Assembly (NCBI RefSeq): GCF_014203735.1
Contig: NZ_JACHJQ010000005.1
Span: 718,869 to 782,868, forward strand
Direction of reading: 5' to 3'
Source of the DNA: Actinophytocola algeriensis
GTDB taxonomy: Bacteria; Actinomycetota; Actinomycetes; Mycobacteriales; Pseudonocardiaceae
Length of the DNA stretch: 64,000 bases
Shown here: in pieces, positions 19,776 to 31,893 of the stretch
Numbering within the stretch: the first letter of the stretch is position 1
How the letters are laid out: the number at the start of each line of letters is the position of its first letter
Notes under the pieces: generated by a model
Seen by the model: only the letters and a program-made list of their open reading frames with translations
What the model was told of the DNA's origin: nothing
Databases searched by the model: none
Translations under genes and position numbers: made by a program

Positions 19776-20557
<782 letters not shown>

Positions 20558-20578
20558 CCCCACTGCCGTGACGGTGGG

Positions 20579-26797: not shown

Positions 26798-27514
26798 TCA
26801 ATCTTCCCCCGCTGCCGCTGTGTCCAGCAGCCACAGCGTCTCTTGCCGCCCGCGCGCGCCCGCTGCCGGCAGTTCTGCCTCCGCCGCACCCGCGACCGCC
26901 GCGGCCACGGCCTCCGCCTTCGCCGCACCCGCGGTCATCAGCCACACCCGCTGCGAGTTGCGGATCGTGGGCAGCGTCAGTGACACCCGCGTAGGCGGCG
27001 GCTTCGGGCAGTCCCGCACCGCCACCACCGCACGCGCCGTCTCCTCGACGGCGGGGGAGTGCGGGAAGACCGACGCCGTGTGGCCCTCCTCGCCGACCCC
27101 GAGCAGGCACACGTCGAAGGGCGGGACGTCCTTGAGCAGCACCGCGTACGCCTCGGCGGCCGCGTCCGGGTCGTCGCCGAACTCGCCGTCCGACGGGGCC
27201 ATCGGGTGCACCCGCTCCGGCGACACCGGCACGTGGTCGAGCAGCTCCTGACGGGCCAGGGTCTCGTTGCGCTCCGGGTCGCCACCGGGCAGGAACCGCT
27301 CGTCGCCCCAGTAGATGTCGATCGTCGACCAGTCCAGGCTCGCCTCGCGCAGCGCCGCGAGCACGGCACCGCCGGTGCGGCCGCCCGTCAGCACGACAGA
27401 AGCCGTGCCACGGGCGGCCTGCGCCTCGGCGAGTACCGCGGCGAGCCGGGTCGCCGTCTGCGCGGCCAGCTCGTCCTGCGACGCGAAGACGACGGTCCTC
27501 GGCTCCGCCGTCAC
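26798..27514 (-). CDS. pgl: 6-phosphogluconolactonase
   Basis: Hydrolyses 6-phosphogluconolactone to 6-phosphogluconate, the second oxidative pentose-phosphate step. The 238-residue protein has the SugarP-isomerase-type loop TGGRTGG, the WGDERF segment and the GVGEEGHTASVFPHS motif with the catalytic histidine. The GTG at 27514 overlaps the opcA stop (GTGA). Last gene of the tkt-tal-pgi-zwf-opcA-pgl operon. The frame continues upstream without protein character. Confidence 0.95.
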   Translation of the reverse strand: MTAEPRTVVFASQDELAAQTATRLAAVLAEAQAARGTASVVLTGGRTGGAVLAALREASLDWSTIDIYWGDERFLPGGDPERNETLARQELLDHVPVSPERVHPMAPSDGEFGDDPDAAAEAYAVLLKDVPPFDVCLLGVGEEGHTASVFPHSPAVEETARAVVAVRDCPKPPPTRVSLTLPTIRNSQRVWLMTAGAAKAEAVAAAVAGAAEAELPAAGARGRQETLWLLDTAAAGED

Positions 27515-28491
27515 GATGCGGTCGCCCCCGCCTTGACCTTCTTGGCGGCCGGTTTGCGGGACGCCGTGCCGCGACCGCGGTCGACCTTGTTCAGCGCCTT
27601 CAACGCGGACTCGTAGATCTCGTCCGGGTCCAGCCTGCGCAGCTCCTCGGCGATGCAGTCGCGGACCGCGCGGCGCTGCAGTGCGACCCGCCGGTCGGGC
27701 TGGCCCGGCTGCGACAGCATGCCGACCGCGCCGTCCGGACGGTGGATCTCGATGGCGCCGGAGCGGCGTTCCATCACCACCGACACGATTCCCTGACCGG
27801 ACTTGGCCTTCGTGCGCTTCACCGGCAGCCGCAGCTTCGCCGACAGCCACGCGGCGAGCAGGTCGGCCGACGGCGAGTCGCTCTCCCCGGACACCGACGC
27901 GGCCGTCACCTTCTCGTGCGGCGGCAGGTCCAGCGCGGCCGCGAGCAGCGCGCGCCACAGCGTCAGGCGCGTCCACGCCAGGTCCGTGTCACCGTCCGCA
28001 TAGGACTTCGCACGGGTCTCGAGCACCTTGCCCGGATTGCGTTCCGCCGCCGCGTCGGTGATGCGGCGCGTGGCGAGCGCACCGATCGGGTCCTTCGCGG
28101 GTGCCACGGGCGACTCGAACGGCCACCACGCCACGACCGGTGCGTCCGGCAGCAGCAGCGGTACCACCACCGAAGCGCCCTCGTTCGCGAGCGGCCCGTA
28201 GAGCCGGAGCACGATGACCTCGCTCGCGCCGGCGTCGCCGCCGACGCGGATCTGCGCGTCGAGCCGCGCCGAGGCCTTCTTCGCGCCGCGGGCCACGACG
28301 ATCACGCGGCACGGGTGTTCCCGGCTCGCGTGGTTGGCCGCGTCGATGACGTCCTCGGTGCGCTCGCTGTCGTCGGCGACGACCACCAGCGTCAGCACCC
28401 GCCCGATGGTGTTCGCGCCACCCTGCTCGCGCAGGTGGACCAGCTTGCTGTTCACCTGCGACGTCGTGGTGGCAGGCAAGTCGATGATCAT
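27511..28491 (-). CDS. opcA: Glucose-6-phosphate dehydrogenase assembly protein OpcA
   Basis: A 326-residue protein required for activity or assembly of glucose-6-phosphate dehydrogenase in cyanobacteria and actinobacteria. Seen here: the start MIIDLPATTTSQVNSKL, the central LLLPDAPVVAWWPF block and ARSLTLWRALL-like helix typical of the family, and a Lys-rich tail (RKPAAKKVKA). Its ATG overlaps the stop of a 72-codon repeat ORF instead of directly following zwf. Its stop overlaps pgl. Confidence 0.94.
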   Translation of the reverse strand: MIIDLPATTTSQVNSKLVHLREQGGANTIGRVLTLVVVADDSERTEDVIDAANHASREHPCRVIVVARGAKKASARLDAQIRVGGDAGASEVIVLRLYGPLANEGASVVVPLLLPDAPVVAWWPFESPVAPAKDPIGALATRRITDAAAERNPGKVLETRAKSYADGDTDLAWTRLTLWRALLAAALDLPPHEKVTAASVSGESDSPSADLLAAWLSAKLRLPVKRTKAKSGQGIVSVVMERRSGAIEIHRPDGAVGMLSQPGQPDRRVALQRRAVRDCIAEELRRLDPDEIYESALKALNKVDRGRGTASRKPAAKKVKAGATAS

Positions 28492-28706
28492 GACGCCCCC
28501 TCGCTGGCGCTCCGTGACGTCAGCTGTGTCAATGGTTCGCTAGCAAGCTCGTTCTGCGTCAATGGTTCGCTAGCAAGCTCGTTCTGCGTCAATGGTTCGC
28601 TAGCAAGCTCGCTCTGTATCAATGGTTCGCTAGCAAGCTCGCTCTGTATCAATGGTTCGCTAGCAAGCTCGCTCTGTATCAATGGTTCGCTAGCAAGCTC
28701 GCTCAC
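28488..28706 (-). CDS. 72-codon repeat ORF linking zwf to opcA
   Basis: An open frame made of six copies of a decapeptide, (S/N)ELASEPL(I/T)Q, plus an 11-residue tail. Its GTG at 28706 overlaps the zwf TGA (GTGA) and its TGA overlaps the opcA ATG (ATGA). Ribosomes leaving zwf can therefore traverse it and reinitiate at opcA. The DNA is a 30-bp tandem repeat, so copy-number change preserves the frame. The peptide has no recognisable domain. Either it is a real short protein or a passive coupling bridge across an inserted repeat; I favour the second. Normal zwf-opcA pairs in relatives are directly adjacent. Confidence 0.5.
   Translation of the reverse strand: MSELASEPLIQSELASEPLIQSELASEPLIQSELASEPLTQNELASEPLTQNELASEPLTQLTSRSASEGAS
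28531..28701. repeat. Six tandem 30-bp repeats between zwf and opcA
   Basis: The 21-bp core AATGGTTCGCTAGCAAGCTCG occurs identically at 28531, 28561, 28591, 28621, 28651 and 28681. Nine-base spacers come in two versions, TTCTGCGTC (first two) and CTCTGTATC (next three). The core contains the near-palindrome TTCGCTAGCAA. Near-perfect identity indicates recent amplification. Confidence 0.95.
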
Positions 28707-30232
28707 GGACGCCTCCAGTGCCTGCCGGTGCGCGTAAGCATGCGCTCCGCCGAGGCCGGCCCCCAGGTACCCGCCTGGTAGGGCTCCGGCTTCCCGCTCG
28801 CCCGCCAGGCCTTCATGATCGGGTCGAGGATCTGCCAGGACAGCTCGACCTCGTCGTTCTTCGGGAACAGCGACGGCTCGCCGAGCAGCACGTCGAGGAT
28901 CAGCCGCTCGTAGGCCTCCGGCGACGACTCGGTGAACGAGTGGCCGTAGCTGAAGTCCATGTTGACGTCCCGGACCTCCATGGTGGAGCCGGGCACCTTC
29001 GAGCCGAACCGCATCGTCACGCCCTCGTCGGGCTGCACGCGGAACACGATCGCGTTCTGGCCGAGCTCCTCGGTGGACGTCGCGTCGAACGGCAGGTGCG
29101 GTGCCCGCTTGAACACCACGGCGATCTCGGTGACGCGGCGGCCGAGCCGCTTGCCGGTGCGCAGGTAGAACGGCACCCCGGCCCAGCGGCGCGTGTCCAC
29201 GGCCAGCTCGATGGCCGCGAACGTCTCGGTGATCGAGTCCTTCGCGAACCCGCCCTCCTGCAACAGACCGGGCACCTTCTGCCCGCCCTGCCAGCCACCG
29301 GTGTACTGGCCGCGCGCGGTGGTCTCGGAGAACGGCCCGACCGGCTTGGTGGCGGCCAGGATCTTCGCCTTCTCCGCACGCACCGCCTGCGGGTCGAAGG
29401 AGACCGGCTCCTCCATCGCGGTCAGCGCGAGCAGCTGCAGCAGGTGGTTCTGGATCACGTCACGGGCGGCGCCGATGCCGTCGTAGTACCCGGCACGACC
29501 ACCGAGACCGATGTCCTCTGCCATCGTGATCTGCACGTGGTCGACGTAGTTGCCGTTCCAGATCGGCTCGAACAGCTGGTTCGCGAACCGGAACGCCATG
29601 ATGTTCTGGACGGTCTCCTTGCCGAGGTAGTGGTCGATGCGGAACACCGACTCCTCGGGGAAGATCTCGTTGACCATCTTGTTGAGCTGCTTGGCGCTCG
29701 TGAGGTCGTGGCCGAACGGCTTCTCGATGACCACCCGGCGCCACTCGTGGTTCTTCGGCTCCGCGAGACCCGTGCGCGCCAGCTGCTGGATCACCTTGGG
29801 GAACGCGGCGGGCGGGATCGACAGGTAGAACGCGTGGTTGCCCGACGTGCCGCGGACCTGGTCGAGGTCCTGGATGGTCTGCACCAGGTTGTCGAAGGCC
29901 GCGTCGTCGTCGAAGGAGCCCTGCACGAAGCGGCAGCCCTCGACGAGCTGGTCCCAGACCTCCTGCCGGAACGGCGTGCGGGCGTGTTCCTTGACCGCGT
30001 CGTGCACGACCTGACTGAAGTCCTCGTCCGCCCAGTCGCGCCGCGCGAACCCGACCAACGAGAAACCGGGTGGCAGCAGCCCCCGGTTCGCGAGGTCGTA
30101 GATCGCCGGCATGAGCTTCTTCCTGGACAGGTCGCCGGTCACCCCGAAGATCACCAGGCCGCACGGCCCCGCGATCGTGGGGAGCCGCTTGTCCCGCTCG
30201 TCGCGCAGCGGGTTCTGCCAGCTGCGTGTCAC
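28703..30232 (-). CDS. zwf: Glucose-6-phosphate 1-dehydrogenase
   Basis: Oxidises glucose-6-phosphate to 6-phosphogluconolactone with NADP, the entry step of the pentose-phosphate pathway. The 509-residue protein has the dinucleotide loop FGVTGDLSRKKL and the active-site signature RIDHYLGKETVQN with the catalytic His and Lys. Length is normal. GTG at 30232 overlaps the pgi stop (GTGA). Its own stop overlaps the repeat ORF rather than opcA. Confidence 0.97.
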   Translation of the reverse strand: MTRSWQNPLRDERDKRLPTIAGPCGLVIFGVTGDLSRKKLMPAIYDLANRGLLPPGFSLVGFARRDWADEDFSQVVHDAVKEHARTPFRQEVWDQLVEGCRFVQGSFDDDAAFDNLVQTIQDLDQVRGTSGNHAFYLSIPPAAFPKVIQQLARTGLAEPKNHEWRRVVIEKPFGHDLTSAKQLNKMVNEIFPEESVFRIDHYLGKETVQNIMAFRFANQLFEPIWNGNYVDHVQITMAEDIGLGGRAGYYDGIGAARDVIQNHLLQLLALTAMEEPVSFDPQAVRAEKAKILAATKPVGPFSETTARGQYTGGWQGGQKVPGLLQEGGFAKDSITETFAAIELAVDTRRWAGVPFYLRTGKRLGRRVTEIAVVFKRAPHLPFDATSTEELGQNAIVFRVQPDEGVTMRFGSKVPGSTMEVRDVNMDFSYGHSFTESSPEAYERLILDVLLGEPSLFPKNDEVELSWQILDPIMKAWRASGKPEPYQAGTWGPASAERMLTRTGRHWRRP

Positions 30233-31893
30233 CTGCTGACCTCCTGAAGAGCTTTCACCAGGTGCGCCAGTCCGGCGGCCCGGTCTACGAAGTGCAACCG
30301 CAGCACCGGCCGCCCGTTTCGGGTGAGCACCTGACCGTCACCGAGTGCCTGCGCGAGCTGCAGCGTGCCGAGTGTGTACGGGCGGTCGGGGACCTGGATG
30401 TCCTCCTCGACCGCGCCGGTCAGCTGCAGGAACACGCCGTTCTGGTGGCCGCCCTTGTGGTACTGACCGGTGGAGTGCAGGAACCTCGGACCCCAGCCGA
30501 ACGTGGTCTGCAACCCGGTGCGGCGCGCGATCTCCGGGCGCAGCACGACCGCCGACGCGTCGGCCAGCCGGTCGAGGTAGGCCTGCACGGCGAAGTAGCC
30601 GAACTCCGGCGCGGAGGCGAGGAACGCGCGCAGCACACCGGCGAGCGTCGTCTCGCCGGACAGCGCCTCCGGTGCGTGGACCTCGACCGGACCGTCCACA
30701 AAGGTCGGTGTGGCCGGCTCGGACTTCGGTGCGTCCAGCAGCGATCGCGCCGCCTTCTTCGCGGCTTCGACGTCCGGCTGGTCGAACGGGTTGATGCCCA
30801 GCAACCTGCCGACCACCGCGGTCGCGTACTCCCACAACAGGAACTGGCCGCCGAGGCCGCCCTCGCTACCCATCAGCGCGCCGTTCGTGGCCTCCCCGAT
30901 CGCGATCGGCGTCGAGTCGGCGTACGCGTCCGAGAAGTCCGGCGAGTCCGGGCGCTCGACCACCACCGGCAGCAGGCCGGTGCCGTTCTTGCCGGTGGAC
31001 TCGGCGATCAGCTGCTCCGCCCAGTCACCGAAACCCTTGATGCCGGAACCGGTGTCGGCGATGACCACCTTCTCCGCGCCCCTGGCGTGTGCCCCGCCGA
31101 GCGCGGCGGCCAGCACCAGCGCCGGGTTGTCCTTGCTGTCGACGGACAGGTACTCGGCGGCCGCGGCGGCCTCGTCGAGCAGCCTGCCGATGTCGGCACC
31201 CGCGAGACCGGACGGCACGAGCCCGAACGCGGTGAGCGCCGAGTAGCGCCCGCCCACGTGCGGGTCCGCGGCGAACACGCGCCGGTAGCCCGCCTCCTTC
31301 GAGGCGGCCTCCAGCGGTGAGCCGGGGTCGGTCACCACGACGATCCGCGACGCGGCGTCGATGCCCTCCTCGGCGAACGCCTTCTCGAAGATCCGCCGGT
31401 GGCTGTCGGTCTCCACAGTGGACCCCGACTTCGAGGACACCACGAGCACCGTGCGGGACAGGTCACCGTCGAGCGCGTCGGCGACCTGGCCCGGGTCGGT
31501 GGTGTCCAGCACGACCAGCGGCACGTTCGCGGTGCGGGTGATCACCTCCGGCGCGAGCGAGGACCCGCCCATGCCCGCCAGGACCACCCGGTCGATGCCC
31601 TCGGCGTGCAGTTCCGCCCGCAGCGCCTCGATCTCGGCGACGAGCGGGCGGGACGTCTCGTGCAACGTCGTCCAGGACAGCCGGATGGCCGCCTCGGACT
31701 CGGCGTCCGGACCCCACAGCGTGGGGTCCTGCGCCGTGAGCTTCGACGCGACCTGCTCGTTCGCCAGTTGCTCCGCCAGCGGGCCCGCGTCCTCGATGAG
31801 CTGCTTGCGGCCCTCGAACTTGCCCTTGATCAGATCCTCGAAATGCTTGACGATCCGTGCCACGTCGGGTGGCAGGTCGTTCGGTTCGGTCAT
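30229..31893 (-). CDS. pgi: Glucose-6-phosphate isomerase
   Basis: Interconverts glucose-6-phosphate and fructose-6-phosphate. The 554-residue SIS-fold protein has the sugar-phosphate motifs GMGGSSLAPEV, SSKSGSTVET and GGRYSALTAFG, and the C-terminal GQYHKGGHQNG with the catalytic region. It belongs to the actinobacterial type found next to tal rather than the type of M. tuberculosis Pgi, whose gene lies elsewhere. ATG at 31893, 8 nt after the tal stop. Placing pgi inside the operon lets fructose-6-phosphate from transaldolase and transketolase return to glucose-6-phosphate, allowing a cyclic pathway for NADPH. Confidence 0.95.
   Translation of the reverse strand: MTEPNDLPPDVARIVKHFEDLIKGKFEGRKQLIEDAGPLAEQLANEQVASKLTAQDPTLWGPDAESEAAIRLSWTTLHETSRPLVAEIEALRAELHAEGIDRVVLAGMGGSSLAPEVITRTANVPLVVLDTTDPGQVADALDGDLSRTVLVVSSKSGSTVETDSHRRIFEKAFAEEGIDAASRIVVVTDPGSPLEAASKEAGYRRVFAADPHVGGRYSALTAFGLVPSGLAGADIGRLLDEAAAAAEYLSVDSKDNPALVLAAALGGAHARGAEKVVIADTGSGIKGFGDWAEQLIAESTGKNGTGLLPVVVERPDSPDFSDAYADSTPIAIGEATNGALMGSEGGLGGQFLLWEYATAVVGRLLGINPFDQPDVEAAKKAARSLLDAPKSEPATPTFVDGPVEVHAPEALSGETTLAGVLRAFLASAPEFGYFAVQAYLDRLADASAVVLRPEIARRTGLQTTFGWGPRFLHSTGQYHKGGHQNGVFLQLTGAVEEDIQVPDRPYTLGTLQLAQALGDGQVLTRNGRPVLRLHFVDRAAGLAHLVKALQEVSR

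Follow-up and report, generated by a model that had tools for sequence, protein, structure and literature searches.

The zwf-opcA junction of Actinophytocola algeriensis, located in the 64,000-nucleotide stretch of contig NZ_JACHJQ010000005.1 that is analysed here (the window hereafter), raises a simple question: what is the repeat-built reading frame that lies between the two genes, and how would translation pass from one gene to the other across it? The first-pass annotation of this DNA described a minus-strand open reading frame (ORF) of 72 codons composed of six 30-bp units, which shares GTGA with the zwf stop and ATGA with the opcA start, and both Tandem Repeats Finder and the ORF list bear this out (coordinates in Table 1). 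According to the evidence below, the frame appears to be a copy of a mini-ORF element, similar in architecture to the mycobacterial interspersed repetitive units (MIRUs), that was inserted into a bare GTGA overlap of zwf and opcA and would act there as a translational coupler with a Shine-Dalgarno-like (SD-like) end of its own. We give this reading a probability of about 0.8.

Tandem Repeats Finder reports the array at 28524-28704 with a period of 30, 6.0 copies and 97% matches. The mini-ORF starts with GTG and has a product of 72 amino acids; two of the six reading frames across it are open (minus frame 0 and plus frame 1), and the other four contain stops. The bridge from zwf to opcA is kept in only 5.7% of 300 shuffles (locus L244; interior dinucleotide-shuffled, length fixed), and thus is not regarded as a product of chance. 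The G+C content of the array is 51.9% vs 70.6% for the window. Behind the units comes a tail that matches the conserved 3' terminus of a dispersed element (GCGAGGGG..GTCATGA; in the window it reads GCGAGGGGGCGTCATGA), so that the array represents an expansion inside the element and not the whole element. Pfam confirms zwf, opcA, and pgl (the last by Glucosamine_iso). The 72-amino-acid product has no Pfam family at E 0.001, and no Rfam match at the gathering score is found in 27400-30300.

Judged by its sequence, the repeat unit of the bridging frame belongs to a dispersed family, which is named SELASE here. The family is defined by the core GCGAGCTTGC[GT]AGCGAA, preceded by a start codon within [AGT]TGA, and by the 3' end GAGGGG..GTC[AG]TGA (25-codon class), and the window copy agrees with this definition. 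Within the window genome (9.73 Mb), a 25-base stretch of the unit occurs at two further places with 3 mismatches, and the core AGCGAGCTTGCKAGCGAA at more. By reading, a convincing element is present at about ten separate loci of this genome, zwf-opcA included; several other core matches (e.g. L021, L029, and L031) were set aside, since they resemble chance occurrences or normal coding sequence. The exact core is detected in 5 of the 6 genus genomes, with 43 copies in G003 and 13 in G000, the window genome. As for G004, it has none, and this contrast with G003 inside one genus may reflect recent bursts or losses. At the level of the family Pseudonocardiaceae, the exact core is carried by 50 of 249 genomes, which represent 15 of 46 genera; a genome has 43 copies at most, and a reversed-pattern control yields 0 matches in the family genomes. 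A class-wide draw of 345 genomes gives the core in 4, one of which is the window genome; this draw had one other Pseudonocardiaceae genome. Outside Pseudonocardiaceae, the core recurs in G344 (12 copies) and G312 (4 copies), which represent one genus of another family of the class, with TGA ahead of the core in the six loci read; this recurrence suggests horizontal transfer or an old origin. The single core match in G547 is without TGA ahead.

The common form in the genus is [AG]TGAGCGAGCTTGCGAGCGAA.CA..G.CACAGGGCGACCGCGAGCGG...ACCGAGCCTGCGAGGGG..GTC[AG]TGA, a mini-ORF of 25 codons that reads MSELASE[SP]..QGDRERR.RACEG.S. Complete mini-ORFs with lengths of 18-31 codons number 99, and their main classes are those of 25 codons (53) and 26 codons (24). 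In 86 of the 99, the next start has an SD-like motif (one of seven pentamers) at most 18 nt away, at 4-6 nt in 80 of the 86; the same test finds one ahead of the mini-ORF's own start in 53 of 99. As controls, random 18-mers drawn from these loci score 8.9% (1.9% with the 4-6 nt spacing), and shuffling the observed 18-mers gives 26.1%. Regarding tandem copies, 35 spacings are below 200 bp, the most common being 30 bp (15 times) and 74 bp (11 times); modulo 3 they give 0 in 16 cases, 2 in 16, and 1 in 3. The 30-bp spacing stays in frame, and the 74-bp spacing (3n+2) corresponds to a new mini-ORF joined by [AGT]TGA. Expansions of the 30-bp unit, with five and six copies, are also present at two other places (L060 and L037). 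L060, which is in the window genome itself (C8:361667 onward), is a second array of 30-bp units and runs in frame straight into the next ORF.

The genomic context was assessed at 124 sites, namely the window, 23 loci of its own and genus genomes, and 100 further loci (25 from genus genome G003 and 75 from other family genomes, among the matches listed), which form a chosen set and not a census. Three of the 23 loci (L018, L019, and L020) have a loose core only, and the own sites C2:760102 and C5:688134 were read but are outside the 124. An [AGT]TGA start stands directly ahead of the core at 120 of 124 sites (80 ATGA, 38 GTGA, and 2 TTGA). At 95 of these 120, an upstream frame of at least 60 codons ends there, and 109 of the 124 lead on to an ORF of at least 90 codons, 91 via [AGT]TGA links and 18 straight in frame. 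Both the upstream and the downstream property are combined at 88 SELASE sites, vs 261 of 1799 (14.5%) other [AGT]TGA in the same loci. Since these genomes are G+C-rich, chance long frames are common, and the frame shifted by one is open for 60 codons at 68 of 120 sites and the frame shifted by two at 38 of 120. SELASE copies precede many different genes.

The same junction was then compared across relatives, using 80 named loci and 70 loci from 70 family genomes, with stops and starts placed by tblastn; these 150 collapse to 127 distinct junctions. Among them are 78 bare [AGT]TGA overlaps, 3 gaps of 3-4 nt, and 46 inserts. For 41 inserts, the zwf stop lies in [AGT]TGA (the five others, L103, L106, L112, L119, and L142, are excluded), and 38 of the 41 form an exact bridge from zwf to opcA, by one mini-ORF in 34 cases, two in 3, and three in 1. 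Simulations with free length and shuffled interior give an expected 9.75 bridges and a maximum of 22 in 200,000 runs. The first-pass annotation had held that random frames and stops in relatives would speak against its view; such junctions are absent as a rule, with 3 of 41 inserts (L113, L137, and L270) breaking the bridge. Bare relatives (e.g. L065, L245, and L247) carry GGAGG at the same place in the zwf end, a few bases ahead of the opcA GTG. The next junction of the operon, opcA-pgl, has inserts longer than 15 nt in 10 of 116 cases vs 44 of 116 at zwf-opcA (distinct junction sets, same loci), and the loci from the family search alone give 3 of 48 vs 13 of 48. These values suggest that zwf-opcA is preferred by inserts or tolerant of them, as counts that ignore descent and errors in placing the pgl start and that face fewer bare overlaps at opcA-pgl (76 of 116).

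Within the genus, the zwf-opcA junction is bare in G001, G003, G004, and G005 and filled in G000 and G002 according to tblastn. The last two are sisters in the zwf+opcA tree with support 100/99. Among named zwf loci, the closest to the window's are those of Actinophytocola oryzae (90%) and A. gossypii (88%), and G002 shares its junction with A. oryzae (L064). The L064 insert resembles both the SELASE consensus (none of 2000 shuffles scores as well) and the window insert (none of 400). The simplest history is probably one insertion before the split of G000 and G002, followed by 30-bp expansion in the window's line. By eye, a comparable appearance is seen at rex-hemA, bare in G000, G002, and G004 and filled in G001, G003, and G005; here 22 loci were considered, L339 and L340 being outside the reading pattern. 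The upstream gene of this pair is one that we take to be rex, and hemA was recognised by motif. An empty site in relatives, i.e. insertion into an existing overlap, is therefore found at zwf-opcA and, by eye, at rex-hemA.

These results modify the view of the first-pass annotation, which saw a tandem repeat that had invaded a coupled junction and was tolerated because it stays open. The invasion and its register agree with the bare junction in 4 of 6 genus genomes and with the 38 of 41 inserts in coupling register; the invader, however, appears to be the dispersed element, the 30-bp repeat being an in-frame expansion of its 5' part.

Table 1. Features of the zwf-opcA junction and its operon neighbours, in window positions
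Feature	Position	Strand	Evidence
Bridging mini-ORF, 72 codons, SELASE element with expanded 5' part	28488..28706	minus	ORF, context and register analyses
GTGA: mini-ORF start overlapped by zwf stop	28703..28706	minus	sequence, ORF list
Six 30-bp units in frame (SELASEPLIQ x3, SELASEPLTQ, NELASEPLTQ x2)	28524..28703	minus	Tandem Repeats Finder, translation
SELASE element 3' tail, 36 nt, ends as other copies: GCGAGGGG..GTC[AG]TGA	28488..28523	minus	
GAGGGGG, Shine-Dalgarno-like, element-borne, ahead of opcA ATG	28496..28502	minus	sequence; family-wide SD-like motif
ATGA: opcA start overlapped by mini-ORF stop	28488..28491	minus	sequence, ORF list
GGAGG within zwf 3' end, 5 nt ahead of mini-ORF GTG	28712..28716	minus	sequence
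zwf, glucose-6-phosphate dehydrogenase (G6PDH), upstream partner	28703..30232	minus	ORF list; Pfam G6PD_N + G6PD_C
opcA, G6PDH assembly/effector subunit, downstream partner	27511..28491	minus	Pfam OpcA_G6PD_assem + OpcA_G6PD_C
opcA-pgl bare GTGA overlap, same operon, element-free comparison junction	27511..27514	minus	sequence; gap 0
pgi-zwf bare GTGA overlap, same operon, element-free	30229..30232	minus	upstream ORF end 30229, zwf start 30232

As a mechanism, we propose that a SELASE element entered the bare GTGA overlap of zwf and opcA. Ribosomes finishing zwf would restart at the overlapping GTG, aided by GGAGG in the zwf end, translate the mini-ORF, stop at its TGA, and initiate anew at the overlapping ATG of opcA beside the element's GAGGGGG. 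One coupling step would in this way be split in two, not broken, and the effect on OpcA would be near neutral. Later, the first 30 nt of the element were duplicated in frame up to six copies; because 30 is a multiple of three, both ends stay in register. The sequences themselves display the dispersal, the register, the empty sites, the SD-like end, and the in-frame expansion, while movement of the element, reinitiation, and the small effect on OpcA are inferences. Termination-reinitiation coupling at ATGA overlaps is reported elsewhere (PMC6728339); the same mechanism is proposed here for each SELASE overlap, with the difference that the two genes there overlap directly, while at zwf-opcA the mini-ORF would relay between them.

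Several observations weigh against the coupler reading. The 3' part of the element differs between genera, the 26-codon class having the common 5' core and another 3' part. A start is lacking at 4 of the 124 sites (3 CTGA and 1 CAGG), the upstream frame is shorter than 60 codons at 25 of 120, and 11 of 120 do not reach an ORF of at least 90 codons. With length fixed, shuffled versions of the 46 inserts still form 27.3 bridges, where 38 are observed, and therefore length modulo 3 accounts for a large share of the register signal. In addition, the sites share ancestry but carry equal weight in the counts, and the mobility of the element, which we infer, is deduced from dispersal and empty sites.

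Among other explanations, one regards the repeat as passive junk, i.e. an untranslated minisatellite with a chance open frame and chance overlaps, with opcA using translation signals of its own. It can draw on a peptide that is not conserved as protein and on the SD-like GAGGGGG of opcA, but with 38 of 41 inserts in register vs 9.75 expected and 120 of 124 sites starting in [AGT]TGA it is very improbable. Even harder to believe is that the mini-ORF encodes a small repeat protein with a function in which it acts on G6PDH. Although the frame is open and the SELASE start is common to the copies, those copies precede many different genes, and the protein-coding role was rejected after codon-position and rare-codon analysis. 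Divergence by codon position equals 0.275/0.182/0.180 for 51 distinct 25-codon copies and 0.319/0.362/0.280 for 23 distinct 26-codon copies, and rare codons make up 36 of 72 in the mini-ORF vs 86 of 1635 in four operon genes. With no third-position excess, half of the codons rare, and no Pfam family, the peptide looks unselected; selection probably acts on the DNA motif and the open frame. An opcA promoter carried by the element also has a small chance of being right: MIRUs lying between senX3 and regX3 are reported to permit expression of regX3 independently of senX3 (PMC4213456), but no promoter (of sigma-70-like type, the only type searched) or terminator is found at 28400-28900.

The suggestion that the array is a tunable spacer, the number of 30-bp units setting the OpcA:Zwf ratio via rare codons or unit pairing under selection at this locus, would be an addition compatible with the coupler reading, and as such is unlikely though better placed than the three explanations above. 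Besides the rare codons, it is favoured by RNA folding, according to which a 132-nt four-unit stretch has a z score of −2.93 (2 of 200 shuffles as good) and a single consensus element 0.12, and by the excess of inserts at zwf-opcA over opcA-pgl. Unit-unit mRNA pairing that slows ribosomes could be the best hook for such a role. The opcA-side piece of the array, however, folds no better than shuffles (z −0.42), 30-bp expansions occur at unrelated genes too (L060 and L037), 81 of 127 junctions are without an insert longer than 5 nt, and copy-number variation is sampled by one genome of the window species.

Regarding the inserts of relatives, the first-pass annotation had proposed a search for the same repeat at their zwf-opcA junctions. 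SELASE is found in 2 of the 46 inserts, and other motif types occupy the rest: GACCGGGTGCGGG in 10, MIRU-type GAGGAGCGGCG in 6, GCGAAGAAC-type in 5, and others in 23, with two further GACCGGGTGCGGG-type inserts recognised by eye (L082 and L306). As judged by motif, the inserts thus fall into at least four types, one of them matching mycobacterial MIRUs. For sampled pairs within a type, 0 of 400 shuffles are as good in every pair. Between types (whole inserts), p is below 0.05 in 4 of 53 pairs, all with SELASE, where chance alone would give about 2.7. The types accordingly are distinct, with a possible remote kinship of SELASE to the mycobacterial ones. The SELASE consensus gives p values of 0.13, 0.052, and 0.127 against MIRU-type inserts L117, L129, and L131, and six pairs of whole SELASE and MIRU-type inserts give 0.015 and 0.0225 in two and at least 0.09 in the rest. 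Homology of SELASE to short mycobacterial inserts was considered and rejected (L089 is weakly similar with p 0.021; L102, L110, L115, and L118 are not), as was homology of its consensus to the GACC-type (p 0.34 for L250 and 0.60 for L078). The genome of L115, a Mycolicibacterium, also contains 27 tandem 33-bp units TGAGCGCTTGCGCGAAGAACSGA.. (G611:C86:3050-3930), which are mini-ORF-like and a multiple of three in length. Among ten genomes searched with the MIRU-type 20-mer (at most 2 mismatches), it occurs at 12-36 places in five, at one in two, and at none in three, its tandem copies being mostly 50-58 bp apart; this spacing and dispersal fit MIRUs, since 53-bp and 77-bp MIRUs are mentioned in PMC4213456.

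A further family, GACCGGGTGCGGGTGTCCCGC, has the core CCGACCGGGTGCGGGTGTCCCGC. Searched with at most 1 mismatch, 120 Pseudonocardiaceae genomes yield it in 43, representing 25 of 46 genera (loci L314-L325; at zwf-opcA e.g. L250, L253, L260, L272, and L313). Some of its copies are tandem, about 70-90 bp apart, and many are followed by a Shine-Dalgarno motif and [AGT]TGA. At zwf-opcA it sits in units of 71-89 bp that end with GGAGG and [AGT]TGA, an architecture akin to that of SELASE; in sequence the two are dissimilar (p at least 0.11 in six pairs). Bridging is observed at 6 of 12 sampled loci. In L260, L274, and L324, the segment that begins at GGAGG and runs to the first [AGT]TGA appears by eye again at the 3' end, as if the target had been duplicated. 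In L316 and L322, also by eye, the core apparently lies inside polyketide-synthase-like frames and not between genes.

The closest known system is that of the MIRUs. The MIRU description by Supply et al. 1997 is said to place the ends of a small ORF in overlap with the contiguous genes at DTGA. MIRUs are not known to have dyad symmetry, and we know of no in-frame 30-bp expansion inside a MIRU mini-ORF. For SELASE, the values that bear on symmetry are the folding z scores given above, 0.12 for a single consensus element and −2.93 and −0.42 for pieces of the array. SELASE resembles them as a short dispersed repeat with many copies, some of them tandem (exact cores: 43 in G003, 13 in G000), as a small ORF in gene direction whose ends overlap the adjoining genes at [AGT]TGA (120 of 124 at the start; 109 of 124 lead on), and in entering overlaps that already exist; mobility and a very small effect on the gene are proposed for both. 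It differs in belonging to another bacterial family, in the in-frame 30-bp expansion within the mini-ORF, and in a consensus that is not significantly similar (p 0.052-0.13 for three MIRU-type inserts), remote kinship being possible. SELASE may therefore be called MIRU-like by architecture; by sequence, the alignments do not identify it as a MIRU. A 2025 review (PMC12548453) describes MIRUs as apparently mobile elements that go into start codons, couple at −4 nt, and disturb the gene very little. The claim of the first-pass annotation that no such case is described at this locus consequently stands in part: among the matches listed (title and abstract start, subscription journals being mostly outside), no literature on such elements in Pseudonocardiaceae or at zwf-opcA is present, while the kind is described in that review. 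The SELASE family, its in-frame minisatellite, and the repeated invasion of zwf-opcA appear to be new. Elsewhere in the window, a perfect 14-bp tandem duplication CCCACTGCCGTGAC is located at 20545-20572.

More broadly, it is a tentative and rather unlikely idea that Actinobacteria hold several unrelated families of mobile coupling cassettes, mini-ORFs that enter start-stop overlaps and carry a restart signal of their own, with zwf-opcA as a convergent hotspot for at least four of them and in-frame array growth tuning OpcA. As for the meaning of the coupler reading, it would carry the concept of MIRUs outside the mycobacteria and to families that differ in sequence, offer ready-made relay elements for the study of termination-reinitiation, and provide an example of a genome that takes intra-operon insertions without breaking its operons. 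The empty and filled zwf-opcA sites form a natural set in which the register is kept over lineages, and this suggests that the coupling of zwf and opcA is selected.
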